A stretch of DNA of 64,000 nucleotides, taken from positions 124,566 through 188,565 of the forward strand of contig NZ_RZUF01000004.1 in assembly GCF_004005375.1 (NCBI RefSeq). The letters run 5' to 3'. The notes beneath the pieces were generated by a model. The model was not told the origin of the DNA. It was given only the letters and a program-made list of their open reading frames with translations, and made no database searches. Source of the DNA: Rheinheimera sediminis (GTDB lineage Bacteria; Pseudomonadota; Gammaproteobacteria; Enterobacterales; Alteromonadaceae). Below are positions 25,711 to 51,816 of this stretch, piece after piece (position 1 is the stretch's first letter; each line of letters opens with the position of its first letter). The translations under genes were made by a program, and so were the position numbers.

Positions 25711-27021
25711 TCAAAGGAGGTGTAACCGGTGACTCTTTGCCGCAAAGTCAATTAACCATTGGGGAACCCCCTCATGCACCGCTAGTTGGGGCCATGTTTT
25801 GACTACTTCAATGGTGTCACGAACAATTTGCTTAGCTTTAGCTTCATTTAAATTTGTAATGAGCTTGGCGACTGAAAGTATGTCTGAAAGCATAAAGTTG
25901 TCTCTTTTACCATTTACTGATAGCTGGTGCTGATCTACCCAAGGTGAGCCTGGCTTGTAGCTGAACGCCACATCATATGCTGGTGCTAACCGCCATTGAA
26001 AATCATCGTCCACCATAAAAGAGAAATTCTTGGAGTGGTCATCCTGATTTCTGGCAACAATGTTAAAAACCATTCGTTTAAATATCTGCTCTTGCTCTTC
26101 ATAGCCAAAATTAAGCTTTCTCAAAACCCCCAGTAGTTGCTCATAGCTATATTGGCCTGGCTTTTTAAAGTCAGCGTGGTCAATAGCGCATAAAGTTGCA
26201 ACGTGGTACTTCTGGTTAGAAATTCGGTCAAAACGTTTCGTGAGAAAATGCTTTCTGCCTGAACCCTTCTCATGTAGAAGGCTGCACTCTGCCATATCTA
26301 TGCCGCATTGAGTCGCCAATTTGTAGTAAACGTACTCCATTACTCCATAACCTAGCGGATCTCCAAAAGTTTCTTTGTCCTTATTTTCAGAGGTAATACC
26401 ATCAAATTTGAGCAGGTAGTGTTCAAAGCCAACTGGCACATCTGTTTGCCCCGAAAGGACCTTAGTCCGCTCTGCATTCAAGGCGATAAGTGCTTTTGGT
26501 CTGGCACCGCCAGCGGATGTTCCAACTTGAAGTAATTGAACCATGGCATGGTCATATTCAAGGCTGGCATTGAACTCTTGTCGTTTGTTAAGGACAGAAT
26601 CAGCAAGCTCGACTAGACCTGCGATATCAACTTCAAATGATTCATGCTTAGTAAGCTTTGCTGCGGGATAGTATTCAAGCGCACCCATACCTCTTTTTCC
26701 GGTATAGAGTAATCGTTCAACTGGTTTGAAGTCAGCTGGGTCTAAACCTTTACCGGCTAGCCACGCGTTGATAACTGAGTTACCAAAGTCATCGGGCAAA
26801 GAATCTGCAAAAACAGCTGGTAAGCCTTTGTATGTCTCATACGACAAAGCTGGAAAAACAAACACCCCTTTTCTAAGTGGCAGATGGATAGGTGAGAGTG
26901 AAAAACCATATTGCAACCACTCAGGGGTATATTCAAATCTAGTCAGATTGTCGTCATCGCTGTAAAGCAGCGCCCCTACAGCTGTATCCCCAAACATAAC
27001 TTGGCAAACATTTGCTACCAC
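25711..27021 (-). CDS. hipA: HipA-family serine/threonine kinase toxin
   Basis: HipA toxins phosphorylate glutamyl-tRNA synthetase or related targets and induce growth arrest; HipB neutralises them. Visible are the Gly-rich phosphate loop region VGTSAGGARPK (166-176), which holds the regulatory autophosphorylated serine in E. coli HipA, the catalytic loop NQDDHSKN (325-332) and the metal-binding Asp350 in APAYDVAFSY. At 436 residues it is intact and close to E. coli HipA (440). It follows hipB by 4 bases. Codon use is more AT-rich than in the flanking core genes, fitting transfer with the element. The catalytic residues look intact, so the module should be active. Confidence 0.9.
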   Translation of the reverse strand: MVANVCQVMFGDTAVGALLYSDDDNLTRFEYTPEWLQYGFSLSPIHLPLRKGVFVFPALSYETYKGLPAVFADSLPDDFGNSVINAWLAGKGLDPADFKPVERLLYTGKRGMGALEYYPAAKLTKHESFEVDIAGLVELADSVLNKRQEFNASLEYDHAMVQLLQVGTSAGGARPKALIALNAERTKVLSGQTDVPVGFEHYLLKFDGITSENKDKETFGDPLGYGVMEYVYYKLATQCGIDMAECSLLHEKGSGRKHFLTKRFDRISNQKYHVATLCAIDHADFKKPGQYSYEQLLGVLRKLNFGYEEQEQIFKRMVFNIVARNQDDHSKNFSFMVDDDFQWRLAPAYDVAFSYKPGSPWVDQHQLSVNGKRDNFMLSDILSVAKLITNLNEAKAKQIVRDTIEVVKTWPQLAVHEGVPQWLIDFAAKSHRLHLL

Positions 27022-27025
27022 TGTA

Positions 27026-27445
27026 CTACTCCTTCACCAGTAGTCGCTGTCTTCTTGCAAGAAGCGGGTTAGTTTCTGCTTTTGCTCCTGTGCCAATTTC
27101 CATAGGTCGTCCTAAGCGGCTATCTTGCTTGTTTTGTACTCGAAAAGGCATGAGCCTGCCCTGAACTTGGCTCTTGTTGCTATTTTTTGATGCCAAGAGC
27201 GGACTAATTTCCGGTTTACTAACCAAAAGATCCAAATTATCTAAAAGCTCAAGATGCCTAATTATGGCTATAAAAGTAGCCATTTTGGTAATTCCCTTTT
27301 CAAGACCAGCATATGACTTACGAGTAATGCCTACACGACAGGCTAGCTCTTCTTGAGTCAAGTTCAGCTCTTTGCGTCTTGACTCCAATCTTGAGAAAAT
27401 CTCTGCTGCAATAGCACCATCAGACATCGAGTTTGAAATCTTCAT
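27026..27445 (-). CDS. hipB: HipB-like helix-turn-helix antitoxin
   Basis: A 139-residue DNA-binding antitoxin and autorepressor for HipA. The HTH (Xre/Cro type) covers about 25-75 (RRKELNLTQEELACRVGITR then KSYAGLEKG), followed by an unusually long basic tail (about 85-139) ending LLARRQRLLVKE. E. coli HipB has 88 residues, so the tail is an extra; it is rich in Lys, Arg and Gln and probably flexible. It lies directly upstream of hipA. Repeated TTACTCATTT boxes upstream are probable operators. Confidence 0.85.
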   Translation of the reverse strand: MKISNSMSDGAIAAEIFSRLESRRKELNLTQEELACRVGITRKSYAGLEKGITKMATFIAIIRHLELLDNLDLLVSKPEISPLLASKNSNKSQVQGRLMPFRVQNKQDSRLGRPMEIGTGAKAETNPLLARRQRLLVKE

Positions 27446-27703: not shown

Positions 27704-28795
27704 TCAGTTTTGGCGCTTACCCTGTTGCAACCTTTCAAACTTCGCATGCACCCGGTTTGGGAAAAAGTCGGTGTAGATTTGCCATAGGATGTTGATATTC
27801 CTATGGCCTGTGACCTAGGCGACTTCGTCAATGACAAAACCGGCTTCGAATAAACGGCAGGCGCCTTCGCGGCGTAGGTCGTGCCAGCGCAAATCTTCAA
27901 TGCCAAGCTCTTTTCTGACCCGTTGAAAACCTGCTGTGACGCTTTTACCGTTGTAGGGAAAGATCAGCTCATCTGTTTTAGGCTGGCGTTGTAAGATCTC
28001 CCAGGCTTCGCCCAGTAACGGCACCAGCATATGGTTACCGGCTTTTTTCCTTGGGTCTTTGCGGTCTTCTACCATCACTGCTTTGTTTTTTTCGTCAACG
28101 CCAGACCATTTGATTTTGCAGACTTCGCTGATCCGCATGCAGCTTAAAATGGCAAAGTTGAGTATTTCGGTAAAAGGGATTTTGGCCGTGACATGTTCCT
28201 GGCGTTTTTCTAAACCCTTGATGATGCGCTCTAACTTGTCACTCACTGGCCGTCTGGTGCATTTTTGTGCCTTACCAACCAGTTTCAGATCATTGAGGGT
28301 TTTACGGCCTTCGGTAATCAGCTTGTTGTCGACAGCAATATTAAACACTGGCTTGGCTGCGGCAAACACTGAACTCAGGTAGCTAATATCATGTGCAATA
28401 GTGGCAGCTGAAGCTCCGGCCTTGCGTCTGGCCTGGCAATGGTCGACTAAATCTTTGATAGTCAGCTCATCGGCCTGAATCGCCGCCAGATCACAGTCTG
28501 CCACTCAGTTCAGGCAATAAGCTTTGGTGCGGCCTATGGTTGGAGCTATTGCCGAGTGGTTGCGGTACATCGCAATCAGCTCGCGGATAATTGGCACCGG
28601 CTCCACTGCGCCAGGGAGGCCATCACGCTCGATCATGGTCACCATCTGCATGCCCCAGCTCTTCGCGTCTGACTGTCTGCCAAAGGTCCGCGATTCGCGG
28701 TATACTACCGCCTAGCCTTTATGTTCCCGGACGGTACAGCGATAGCGTAATTCGCCTTTGCTGGTTTTGCGTTTTTCAATGGTATAACCGGCCAT
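27704..28795 (-). pseudogene. Tyrosine integrase with three in-frame stop codons
   Basis: Read from the ATG at 28795 (MAGYTIEKRKTSKGELRY) a single frame of 364 codons runs to the stop at 27704 with no frameshift, but is interrupted by TAG at codon 28, TGA at codon 97 and TAG at codon 327. The catalytic pattern of tyrosine recombinases is recognisable: MRISEVCKIKW (first Arg), WHDLRREG (His-x-x-Arg), and after the third stop VTGHRNINILWQIY with the second His and the nucleophilic Tyr. The longest uninterrupted piece (27815-28504) lacks the last two. Position beside the att site and orientation away from dusA suit the element's own integrase. Confidence 0.88.
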
Positions 28796-29938: not shown

Positions 29939-29970
29939 CAAAAAAAGTGGTGAATTTCACCACTTTTTTG
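29939..29970 (+). terminator. Intrinsic terminator of dusA
   Basis: AAAAAAGTGGTGAA pairs with TTCACCACTTTTTT and ends in a T run, about 23 bases after the dusA stop. Confidence 0.85.
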
Positions 29971-30056: not shown

Positions 30057-30073
30057 CTGGCACGTACCTTGAA
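30057..30073 (+). promoter_or_regulatory. Sigma-54-type promoter 1
   Basis: CTGGCACGTACCTTGAA matches the -24/-12 consensus YTGGCACGRNNNTTGCW at 15 of 17 positions, with the GG at 30059-30060 and correct spacing; the -12 GC reads GA. The expected start is near 30085, about 30 bases before the 88-residue gene. Confidence 0.6.
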
Positions 30074-30114: not shown

Positions 30115-30381
30115 ATGAAAACACTTGCTACCTTAGTTCTTGTTACCACTACAGCTTTTGCTACTGCACCTTCAGTTCAGGCCAATGAACTGAGCTTACC
30201 TTCTGTTAATACAGCAGCTATTAGCACTTTTACTGCGGAACTAATAAATCAGCAAATGGCTGAATTGAAAGTTGCCATTCTGGAACAAAGTCAAAAAGCT
30301 CTGGCTGAACTGGACACTAATCTAGTGACCAGCGCTGAAACTGAAAAAGAAGTTGTGGTTACAGTAGCTAAGGCGAACTAA
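30115..30381 (+). CDS. Small exported protein of unknown function
   Basis: An 88-residue protein that I do not recognise. The N terminus is a signal peptide (MKTLATLVLVTTTAFATAPS with a probable cut after VQA). The mature part is about 65 residues, rich in Ala, Glu, Lys, Gln and Thr and likely helical (LINQQMAELKVAILEQSQKA). A TTAAGGATCACG ribosome binding site precedes the ATG. It is the first gene after a sigma-54-type promoter and is followed after 2 bases by a 41-residue membrane peptide. The neighbourhood (PspC-domain gene) suggests an envelope stress role, by inference only. Confidence 0.65.
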   Translation: MKTLATLVLVTTTAFATAPSVQANELSLPSVNTAAISTFTAELINQQMAELKVAILEQSQKALAELDTNLVTSAETEKEVVVTVAKAN

Positions 30382-30383
30382 GG

Positions 30384-30509
30384 ATGCTGAGCTTAACATT
30401 AGGGTTATTGGGGCTGTTTTTATTACCCGTAGTTAGTGTTGGCCTGGTGTCTGTGATCTGGCATTGGTTATTACCCCCCTTTGATATTCCTGCGTCAACC
30501 CGGTCTTAA
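30384..30509 (+). CDS. 41-residue membrane peptide
   Basis: An ATG two bases after the preceding stop opens a 41-codon frame: MLSLTLGLLGLFLLPVVSVG, then LVSVIWHWLLPPFDIPASTRS. It is almost entirely hydrophobic up to residue 30, so a single long or hairpin membrane segment is expected. Its own ribosome binding site (ACTAAGG) overlaps the upstream stop, pointing to translational coupling. I know no family for it. From its stop to 30767 the sequence has no gene; it is AT-rich and leads into the second sigma-54-type promoter. Confidence 0.5.
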   Translation: MLSLTLGLLGLFLLPVVSVGLVSVIWHWLLPPFDIPASTRS

Positions 30510-30739
30510 GTAGTACCGGGTTTTGTTATTTTAAGTCCTTACTCCGCTGTTTATCTGCTGCTGAAAATCTCATTTCTCTTTATTCACATACCTCTTTGCT
30601 TTGTCCTTTTAAGTTGCCCACTAACCCCGAAATCACATTTTTAAAATGGCTAAGAAGTGGTCAAAATTGCCATTTAATATTTCAAGTAAAACTCAGAGAA
30701 TGATCTGAAATAAGTTTTAATTAATAAAAATTCCAATTA

Positions 30740-30767: not shown

Positions 30768-30784
30768 TTGGCATAACAGCTGCA
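30768..30784 (+). promoter_or_regulatory. Sigma-54-type promoter 2
   Basis: TTGGCATAACAGCTGCA carries the essential GG (30770-30771) and GC (30782-30783) ten bases apart. It agrees with the -24/-12 consensus at all but three positions. The transcript would start near 30796, about 55 bases before the first micropeptide gene. Confidence 0.6.
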
Positions 30785-30851: not shown

Positions 30852-30926
30852 ATGGAAGTAGTAGCACTGATGGTTGTATTAGCTTGGTTCGGTATTGTTG
30901 GCAGCTGGGCTGCAGACGAAGTCTGA
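30852..30926 (+). CDS. Membrane micropeptide, copy 1 (24 residues)
   Basis: Reads MEVVALMVVLAWFGIVG followed by SWAADEV. Residues 3-20 are a membrane segment; the acidic end ADEV is presumably exposed. A strong GAGGAGAG ribosome binding site lies seven to eight bases upstream. Compared with copy 2 it has synonymous changes in the Gly-Ile-Val codons and one Val/Ile exchange, which argues that the peptide is made and selected. No family recognised; too short for standard gene calling. Confidence 0.65.
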   Translation: MEVVALMVVLAWFGIVGSWAADEV

Positions 30927-30992
30927 ATAACTAAGCGTTGATGAAAGTTAGCAAAAGCACAAACAACATAAACAAAGGTAAGGAAAGTCAAA

Positions 30993-31067
30993 ATGGAAAT
31001 AGTAGCACTGATGGTTGTATTAGCTTGGTTCGGCATAGTAGGCAGCTGGGCTGCAGACGAAGTCTGA
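30993..31067 (+). CDS. Membrane micropeptide, copy 2 (24 residues)
   Basis: Reads MEIVALMVVLAWFGIVG plus SWAADEV, one residue different from copy 1. AAGGAAAG lies seven bases before the ATG. One membrane segment is expected, with the N terminus probably inside or out undetermined. Same cluster and promoter as copy 1. Confidence 0.65.
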   Translation: MEIVALMVVLAWFGIVGSWAADEV

Positions 31068-31133
31068 ATAACTAAGCGTTGATGAAAGTTAGCAAAAGCA
31101 CAAACAACATAAACAAAGGTAAGGAAAGTCAAA

Positions 31134-31208
31134 ATGGAAATAGTAGCACTGATGGTTGTATTAGCTTGGTTCGGCATATTCGGCAGCTGGGCTGCAGACG
31201 AAATCTGA
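31134..31208 (+). CDS. Membrane micropeptide, copy 3 (24 residues)
   Basis: Reads MEIVALMVVLAWFGIFG plus SWAADEI, so it differs from copy 2 at Val16 to Phe and at the last residue, Val to Ile, both conservative. Same ribosome binding site. The following gene is 32 bases downstream. Confidence 0.65.
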   Translation: MEIVALMVVLAWFGIFGSWAADEI

Positions 31209-31240: not shown

Positions 31241-31336
31241 ATGTCATTAATTATTATCAATATTGTCGTGGTCTGGGCTTTGGCTGGTTTGATGTGGATG
31301 TTGGATAAAGCTGTAATTTATAAGGTTGGGGAGTGA
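31241..31336 (+). CDS. 31-residue membrane peptide next to pspC
   Basis: MSLIIINIVVVWALAGLMWM followed by LDKAVIYKVGE: one membrane segment and a short basic tail. GGGAGGAAC is a very strong ribosome binding site. Four bases separate its stop from the pspC-like ATG, so the two are surely in one unit. It occupies the position of small Psp membrane proteins (PspB, PspD) but I see no sequence match to them. Confidence 0.6.
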   Translation: MSLIIINIVVVWALAGLMWMLDKAVIYKVGE

Positions 31337-31340
31337 TAAC

Positions 31341-31550
31341 ATGAGTATAGGCAGAGACAAAAGCGCCTGGTTTGTAAACAAGGCCAAACGTAAAATTTCA
31401 GGTGTCTGTGCAGGTTTTGCGGCTTTTTATGAGCAACCCATCTGGTTGGTCCGCGCAGTTGTAGTATTGCTGGCGTTCTGTTTTCCAGTGGCTGTAGTAG
31501 TCGCTTACATCGCTGCTGCGTTAATACTGCCAGAACGTTGGGTATACTAA
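31341..31550 (+). CDS. pspC: PspC-domain membrane protein
   Basis: A 69-residue protein consisting of one PspC domain: basic lead (NKAKRKISGVCAGFAAFYE), then two hydrophobic stretches (about 33-50 and 50-63) and a short tail PERWVY. PspC in E. coli senses envelope stress with PspB and recruits PspA; there it is longer (119 residues), with a periplasmic part lacking here. GGGGAG precedes the ATG at 31341. No pspA, pspB or pspF lies in this window. The family is clear; its partner set is not. Confidence 0.82.
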   Translation: MSIGRDKSAWFVNKAKRKISGVCAGFAAFYEQPIWLVRAVVVLLAFCFPVAVVVAYIAAALILPERWVY

Positions 31551-42058: not shown

Positions 42059-42114
42059 GTTGCACTGTCGCTGCGCTCCGAGTGCAACCTACCTGCGCTC
42101 CGAGTGCAACCTAC
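42059..42114. repeat. 22-bp tandem duplication with a GTTGCACT hairpin
   Basis: CTGCGCTCCGAGTGCAACCT plus AC occurs twice without a gap (42071-42092, 42093-42114). GTTGCACT at 42059-42066 is complementary to AGTGCAAC in each copy, so a hairpin can form with either. It is part of the 350-bp gap between the membrane protein and katG. Confidence 0.75.
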
Positions 42115-50217: not shown

Positions 50218-51816
50218 ATGAAAATTAAGATGGCTATTACATTAGGCGTCGCAAGCTTTTTACTTGTCGTGGCAATGAACAGTTATATAGGTATGCAGGC
50301 CAGCAGCAAACTTGGTGAAATGCTGGAGTACTTAAGCGGGCCTGCCTGGGATACGGCGGATGGCGCTATGGAAGGGCAAATTGGTATACAGCAGGAAATT
50401 ATAATACTGCAGCAGTTTTATCATGCAGAGTTGACGCCAGCAGAGACTGAAACTCAATTGGCTGCAGCCAGTGCTATGGCCAAAGAGGCGCTGACCAGAA
50501 TGGAACAAAGCGGTTTATTAAAAAGCGCAACGATCGCAGAATTTGAGCGGCTTTGGACTGGTTATCAACAACAGCGTGATCTGTTGCATCAGCAACTCAA
50601 AGCCGGACAAAATTCTAAAGACCAGTATGAAAAGTTTCAGACTTCAGTGGTCAGCTTGCTCGACTTTGTCGGCACTATGGAAGAAGAGGCTGATTCAGCG
50701 GTAGAGTCCGAAACTGCTGCAGTGGATTCGTTACAAAGTTCGGCTCGTTGGAATTTAAGTTTAGGCCTGAGTGTAAGCGTGGTGATAGCTGTACTGATTT
50801 TTATATTCGCTCAGTCCATTATTCTGGAACCTATTTCCAGATTAAAACGACATTTAACCGATTTGGGGCGTGGTTCTGGTGATTTGACGTCCAGGCTTAG
50901 TACTAAAGGAGCTGATTCAGAAGTCAAAGATTTAGCACTAGCCTTTAACCATTTTATCGCTCAATTGCAGCAACTGATGCAATCCGCTAAGGAAAGCCAC
51001 GACTCGCTTAGTTCAGCTCATCACGATATTTCCGCTGCGATAGAACAAACGACCTCAGCAGTTAGCGTGCAACTTAAGGAAACAGTTGCAGTGGCTGACG
51101 CTATTGAAGAGTTGAGCAAAGCCATTGATCATATCAGTCAGGCTGTACACAAGGCGGATTCCGCATCAGGTGAGGCTGCAGGCATTACTTCGCAAGGTGC
51201 TCAGGTGGTGCAGGCGGCACGTTCCGGGGTGAATGAAGTCGCAGATGAAATCAATAACGCTTCTAAGGTGATTAGTGCTCTGGTGGAAGACAGTAAAAAT
51301 ATTAGCTCTATGCTCGAAGTGATCCGCAGTATTGCTGAACAGACTAACTTGCTGGCACTGAATGCTGCGATCGAAGCAGCCCGGGCTGGTGAGTCTGGCC
51401 GGGGTTTTGCTGTAGTGGCCGATGAGGTACGTAGTCTGGCGTCCCGTACTCAGGATTCCACCAAGCAAATTGAAGCTATTATCAATAATCTGACCAATGG
51501 TTCAGGCTTGGCGGTGAAAGTGATGGCTGGTGCTCAGCAAAAAGCTCTGGCTATTACCGAACGTATCGCTGATACCAGCAAAGCTTTTGCCTCTATAGTT
51601 GAAGTGGTAAACAAAATCCGCTCCGTCAGTGAAGATATCAAAGATTCGGCGCGACTAGAGCAAACAGAAATGAAGCATATACACAGTAGTATGGATTCAA
51701 TAGTGCAGCAGGCGAAAACCAATGAAAGCATTGGTCAGCATGTTCGTCGGAGCAGTACTAATTTAAGTAAAGAAATGCATAATCTGGCCGGATTACTGGC
51801 TCAGTTCAGAACCTGA
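50218..51816 (+). CDS. Methyl-accepting chemotaxis protein
   Basis: A 532-residue transmembrane chemoreceptor. The first membrane helix is about 5-24, a helical periplasmic sensor of about 150 residues follows (four-helix-bundle type, with [20 protein letters not shown] near its end), the second membrane helix is about 180-202, then HAMP (about 203-257). The signalling hairpin tip is [20 protein letters not shown] followed by [15 protein letters not shown]. No CheR-binding pentapeptide is seen at the C terminus ([10 protein letters not shown]). It is probably co-transcribed with the OprB-like porin. Confidence 0.92.

Follow-up and report, generated by a model that had tools for sequence, protein, structure and literature searches.

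A tandem array of membrane micropeptide genes, probably a lineage-specific part of the phage shock response in Rheinheimera

Three tandem genes, each encoding a 24-residue (24-aa) membrane micropeptide, precede a small pspC gene in a 64,000-nucleotide stretch of the Rheinheimera sediminis genome (hereafter the window). This array is probably a newly evolved part of the phage shock response. On the best explanation, to which we assign a probability of about 60%, it would form the lineage-specific head of an operon driven by PspF and sigma54 that places acidic membrane micropeptides together with a small PspC in the phage-shock envelope response. The array exceeds what chance would give: its frames are found again in 12 of the 22 genomes of the genus and vary with a third-position bias. 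On comparison of these sequences the frames are likely to be translated, selected and under PspF-type regulation. We infer translation, PspF binding, membrane insertion, a protective role, the partner of the peptide and the value of extra copies.

The three 24-codon ATG frames start 141 bases apart and are separated by two identical 66-base spacers, and the leaders in front of the start codons (TGAGGAGAGTAAAA for copy 1, TAAGGAAAGTCAAA for copy 2 and TAAGGAAAGTCAAA for copy 3) are good ribosome binding sites. The original prediction, which was made from this stretch only, had described the array in these terms and had placed it ahead of a 31-residue peptide and a PspC-domain protein, and both descriptions were borne out (table 1). 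It had also held that copies 1 and 2 differ mainly by synonymous changes. This is correct, since three of the four changes are silent and one alters an amino acid (V3I), but it does not extend to copies 2 and 3, which differ by amino acid changes only (V16F and V24I). The array is present once in its own genome. Searches of Pfam and NCBIfam returned no match above the cut-off for the 24-aa, 31-aa, 41-aa and 88-aa frames.

Table 1. Features of the micropeptide locus and of the unit upstream of it (positions within the window).
Feature	Position	Strand	Basis
PspF-type enhancer-like site, palindrome AAGTGGTGAATTTCACCAC, upstream unit	29945..29963	+	Together with a reverse reading at 29947 that overlaps it, ranks in the top three of the window for the canonical pspF-pspA matrix; 112 bases before the sigma54 site
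Sigma54-like promoter CTGGCACGTACCTTGAA, upstream unit	30057..30073	+	Consensus scan; also in relatives
88-aa secreted-looking protein (by eye), no family	30115..30381	+	Pfam/NCBIfam search
41-aa hydrophobic peptide, probably single-TM, no family over cut-off	30384..30509	+	Pfam/NCBIfam search
Terminator-like inverted repeat AACCCGG...CCGGGTTTTG	30497..30530	+	By eye; not listed by the scan (loops of 3-8 only)
PspF-type enhancer-like site AAGTGGTCAAAATTGCCAT, array unit	30655..30673	+	Matrix score 14.7, fifth of 127964 places
Sigma54 promoter-like site TTGGCATAACAGCTGCA, array unit	30768..30784	+	Present in 12/12 array genomes
24-aa membrane micropeptide, copy 1	30852..30926	+	Frame, leader, copies in relatives, selection test
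Spacer 1, 66 nt; small hairpin 30937-30952	30927..30992	+	Sequence comparison and hairpin alignment
24-aa membrane micropeptide, copy 2	30993..31067	+	Frame, leader, copies in relatives, selection test
Spacer 2, same as spacer 1; hairpin 31078-31093	31068..31133	+	Hairpin carried over from spacer 1
24-aa membrane micropeptide, copy 3	31134..31208	+	Frame, leader, copies in relatives, selection test
31-aa hydrophobic peptide	31241..31336	+	Strong matches confined to the 12 array genomes, of 395 family genomes sampled
69-aa PspC-domain protein	31341..31550	+	PF04024 match

In the 24-aa peptide, E2 and D22-E23 flank a stretch of 19 residues, most of them apolar, and the net charge is -3 without any K or R. 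Both W12 and W19 are found in every unbroken copy, and W12, W19 and D22 are constant among the 11 distinct unbroken peptides. The 24-aa and 31-aa peptides were considered as paralogs, as they have M1, V9, W12, W19 and D22 in common register, but the relationship is not secure: the alignment score gave P = 0.004 against full shuffles (0.02 over offsets) and 0.05 when only residues 2-21 were shuffled, the identities gave P = 0.18 and the DNA identity P = 0.12.

The distribution of the array was determined by a search with the small PspC over 60 genomes (its own included), from which 30 loci were read in one orientation. The array was found in 12 of the 22 genomes of the genus (the named matches are Rheinheimera), at a single place and always ahead of the small pspC, and these are the 12 genomes nearest to its own. 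They contain 31 copies in total, with two copies in six genomes, three in five and four in one, and at least two unbroken copies in 12/12. The only broken copy is the second of the four in genome G016 (locus L003, 1016-1090), in which a TGA takes the place of W19; its three neighbors are intact. The 24-aa frame is absent from all ten other genomes of the genus, which contain an 87-97-aa secreted-looking frame (nine genomes) and a 42-43-aa frame (eight genomes) before pspC. A profile search for the 24-aa peptide in 395 family genomes, an even sample of a larger group, gave strong matches in the same 12 genomes only (the rest had E values of at least 0.019), and in an order sample of 394 genomes it gave its own genome and one weak match (E = 0.005); the weak matches elsewhere (E = 0.005-1) are short and partial. 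The exact pattern MVVLAWFGI was found in ten records of the species genome collection: six are from named strains of Rheinheimera and one is from a MAG of this genus, two are from gammaproteobacterial MAGs and the last is from a Verrucomicrobia MAG. The Verrucomicrobia match (L096) was taken as chance, as its letters continue in frame within a longer protein that we presume to be a cytochrome c assembly tail. Thus, the search for copies beyond the genus by family sample, order sample and exact pattern yielded no convincing copy outside Rheinheimera-type genomes, and no array copy was found in viral contigs.

In a phylogenetic tree of PspF (25 rows) a single branch separates the 12 array genomes from the others (92/92, and recovered in 94% of 200 bootstrap trees), which makes a single gain the simplest history. 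The PspF tree was used for this placement because PrmA lies within the stretches read for only 12 of the 30 loci, all of them from array genomes, and cannot place the array. Among the literature matches listed, as judged from titles and abstract openings and with subscription papers outside the scope, no report of such an array was found, and a term search in the main text of two Psp surveys found neither 'Rheinheimera' nor 'Alteromonad'.

The pattern of variation among the copies indicates that selection acts on the peptide, as had been predicted. For the 30 unbroken copies dN/dS is 0.083 over the 24 pairs within genomes and 0.101 over the 411 pairs between genomes, with 11 codons that vary only synonymously and six that vary with an amino acid change. 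Over all 31 copies the third codon positions account for 16 of the 23 variable columns (P = 1.5e-5, a generous value since related copies are not independent), and the residue is constant at codons 1, 2, 5-15, 18, 20, 22 and 23. All 31 copies have the same leader bases at -11 to -9, at -7 to -5 and at -3 to -1. Because dN/dS is about 0.1 while the spacers drift, the frames are probably translated.

It is most improbable that the repeat unit matters as an RNA, through the spacer hairpin or mRNA processing, with the frames being incidental. Such a noncoding or leader repeat would agree with the first codons, which are nearly invariant even at silent sites, and with a 6-pair hairpin that is kept in the 11 aligned spacers (of 19) in 65 of 66 pair cells, including one compensatory change. 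Of the eight spacers outside this alignment one is identical to spacer 1 of the window, the one in G003, the one in G012 and two in G010 show the hairpin by eye, and three (two in G007 and one in G008) lack it. Evidence against a noncoding function comes from the third-position variation and the low dN/dS, from a unit length that ranges from 118 to 141 bases across the genomes, and from G008, in which most of the hairpin region is lost and the frames are still open.

The number of copies is a separate matter from the function of the peptide. Spacer identity averages 95% within genomes (8 pairs) versus 77% between genomes (163 pairs), a contrast that the coding part does not display (93% vs. 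92%), and the likeness of spacers within a genome is a sign of recent duplication or homogenization. Together with a copy number of two to four across close species and the tolerated broken copy in G016, this likeness fits unequal crossing-over without selection just as well as the dose effect of copy number put forward in the original prediction. It is therefore quite conceivable, though we consider it somewhat less than an even chance, that the peptide is functional but one copy is enough and the copy number is neutral. The presence of at least two unbroken copies in every array genome speaks against neutrality, which concerns dosage only and is compatible with the array being a part of the phage shock response.

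The regulatory part of the best explanation is based on two elements ahead of copy 1. By sequence, a sigma54 promoter of the GG-N10-GC type precedes copy 1 in 12/12 array genomes; TTGGCAYARCAGCTGCA upstream of copy 1 is kept in all 12, and much of the flank further up diverges. In a scan for sigma54 sites alone a place at 51395 scored above both psp promoters and more than 100 places in the window reached the threshold, so that the motif alone is weak and the argument is carried by conservation and spacing. The array genomes are close relatives, and the conservation of promoter and spacing is partly due to shared ancestry. Sigma54-like sites within the copies (TTGGCAGCTGGGCTGCA at 30898 and weaker ones at 31039 and 31180) were rejected as codon-driven, as they are coded by G-S-W-A-A and are lost in some of the copies in relatives.

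The second element was identified with a matrix built on a block conserved across 14 canonical pspF-pspA intergenic regions (11 from array genomes and three from genomes without the array; five distinct sites, all from one genus) that PspF presumably binds. When both strands of the window were scanned, the score of the site at 30655 was reached by five of 127964 places, three of which lie in two psp promoters (29945, 29947 and 30655); the other two (14573 on the minus strand and 30353 on the plus strand) lie outside and both exceed 30655. A further matrix, built on another canonical block (site B), ranked 30649 third, behind two places without a link to psp. A composite pattern matched eight places in the organism's own genome, three of them psp promoters, and none when it was read backwards. 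When the region from 41 to 170 bases ahead of the sigma54 site was scanned, the best matrix match lay at a distance of 112-113 bases in 12/12 array genomes (scores 11.2-16.3), although in L009 the match at 113 (11.2) is barely above another at 59 (11.1). The canonical pspF-pspA spacing is 111-112 in 14/14 loci and in seven of 11 further loci, three of the seven being from genomes already counted and the other four not matching the search expression. The ten genomes without the array all keep a sigma54-like site at the pspC promoter; in five the best enhancer-like match is on the opposite strand, at 106 or 116 (scores 11.5-16.5), and in five it scores below 10. In E. coli the pspA promoter has two PspF sites and the pspG promoter has one, with IHF assisting PspF binding and looping (PMC3709507); an AT-rich stretch between the enhancer-like site and the array promoter would allow IHF-type assistance. 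The original prediction is partly supported: its proposal that the peptides may be envelope-stress effectors gains from the sigma54 promoter and a PspF-type enhancer-like site at canonical spacing in 12/12 array genomes.

The alternative offered by the original prediction, a tandem family of type I toxin peptides of the Ldr or Ibs kind that could be checked by antisense RNA, found no support and is highly unlikely. The frames are indeed tandem, tiny and hydrophobic, and tandem duplication was one search criterion by which the type I toxin ZorO was reached (PMC8309996). The type I toxins listed there have mainly basic C-terminal residues, and the exceptions IbsC, ShoB and DinQ indicate that a basic C-terminus is not required (PMC8309996). 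The 24-aa peptide is acidic without a single basic residue, and the copies have one common sigma54 promoter in an operon with pspC. On the two strands together, sigma70-like sites occur at the level of chance (three found, two of them on the minus strand, vs. 4.2 expected), and no Rfam family exceeds its cut-off at the array. The minus strand has an open stretch of 133 codons in the window and of 45-103 codons in the other 11 genomes (from regions of different length), which also counts against a toxin.

Canonical pspF and pspA lie on another contig of the same genome and are followed by pspB (by eye) and a longer PspC, and a PspF gene exceeds the TIGR02974 cut-off in 22/22 genomes of the genus. 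The 69-aa PspC of the array operon matches PF04024 (E = 4.8e-14, 52.3 bits vs. a cut-off of 25) but remains under the PspC equivalog cut-offs (48.7 vs. 104 bits for TIGR02978 and 39.3 vs. 136 bits). A search with the PspG model (PF09583) found no match in any of the 22 genomes and found PspG in the E. coli control. In E. coli, pspG is reported to be the only known target of PspF apart from the psp operon (PMC9239133).

The 88-aa and 41-aa frames make up a separate unit, the first of the two, for which the upstream sigma54-like promoter and PspF-type palindrome serve, and similar frames are found in most of the 22 genomes. Its best enhancer matches lie at 109-114 in 11 of the 12 array genomes, the stretch of L003 being too short, and a terminator-like element similar to the one in table 1 was seen by eye in relatives without the array. 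The palindromic enhancer-like site is also part of a terminator-like hairpin with a T run (29941-29969) after a dus-like gene (by eye), a possible double use. Elsewhere in the window, a HipA-like protein and a small helix-turn-helix-like partner (25711-27445, by eye), a possible toxin-antitoxin pair, adjoin integrase-like frames (27815-28651, by eye), and there is a perfect 22-base direct duplication at 42071-42114. In six of the seven loci from other genera of the family (L024-L030, all but L027) the small pspC is preceded by a PspA-like frame (by eye), ahead of which lies a sigma54-like site; they represent a second psp locus. A 96-101-aa secreted-looking frame precedes the PspA-like frame in L025, L029 and L030, and a 30-36-aa hydrophobic frame follows it in L025 and L030. 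Within the genus no PspA-like frame was seen at the small-pspC locus. In the array clade two promoter-like sites define two units, and the 24-aa and 31-aa frames lie between the second promoter and pspC.

The proposed mechanism starts with envelope damage, upon which PspA would release PspF. PspF on the enhancer-like site (30655-30673) would then activate the sigma54 polymerase at 30768-30784, and a single transcript would cover the three 24-aa frames, the 31-aa frame and the small pspC. With a ribosome binding site for each copy, this one transcript would load the inner membrane with the single-pass 24-aa peptide, which would most likely assemble into helix oligomers or pack against the small PspC and would help to hold the proton barrier. 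Published observations on BAL341 upon phage infection (PMC9305737) may support this envelope-response reading. The peptides might instead be feedback regulators that bind PspC, PspB or PspA in the membrane and damp or prolong the Psp signal without protecting the membrane. Small single-TM peptides often act by binding a larger membrane protein, the array seems to share a transcript with the gene for a PspC-domain protein, behind a promoter of the PspF type, and the constant W12, W19 and D22 could be a binding face. We consider this regulatory role unlikely, as the PspC of the operon is a 69-aa stub under the equivalog cut-offs and may not signal.

A bolder proposal, which we put forward tentatively as the less probable outcome, is that the array represents a new kind of Psp effector, a lineage-born micropeptide array whose size shifts by recombination and whose summed dose sets the sealing of the inner membrane in the PspF-induced cell. 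If true, dose-set sealing would have arisen in a genus without a PspG match, at a second psp locus without the PspA-like gene of other genera. Independent of this proposal, a PspF-type promoter stands before peptides of no known family that are present in two to four copies among close species. The array provides a natural copy-number series for asking what role small membrane peptides have when the envelope is stressed. It also offers an example of a membrane micropeptide gene that would have emerged within a stress operon of a single clade and then been amplified.

Several known systems resemble the array in part. The PspF/sigma54 regulon of E. coli (the psp operon and pspG) is similar in its PspC-domain gene within an operon and its small membrane products, and the array has a sigma54-like promoter and an enhancer-like site at the canonical psp spacing of its own genome; the array differs as a separate second locus without PspA, with 24-aa tandem peptides and in a genus without a PspG match. 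Like PspG, the array peptide is small, belongs to the membrane and is encoded in a PspF-type unit that is distant from pspA, but it has 24 residues compared with the 64 positions of the PspG model, it is tandem, and the genus has no match to that model. The 31-aa frame lies directly before a PspC-domain gene and overlaps, by eye, the ribosome-binding-like stretch of the 69-aa PspC within its 3' end, just as pspB precedes the canonical pspC (by eye), but it has no Pfam or NCBIfam match. The Ldr, Ibs and Zor toxins are likewise tandem, tiny and hydrophobic, whereas the array is acidic, belongs to an operon with pspC and has a sigma54-like promoter, and no antisense gene was seen by Rfam or the promoter scan. 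YohP of E. coli (27 aa), compared by description, is also a tiny, stress-linked single membrane helix; it differs in that its overproduction lowers the membrane potential and raises PspA and PspC (PMC12719787).
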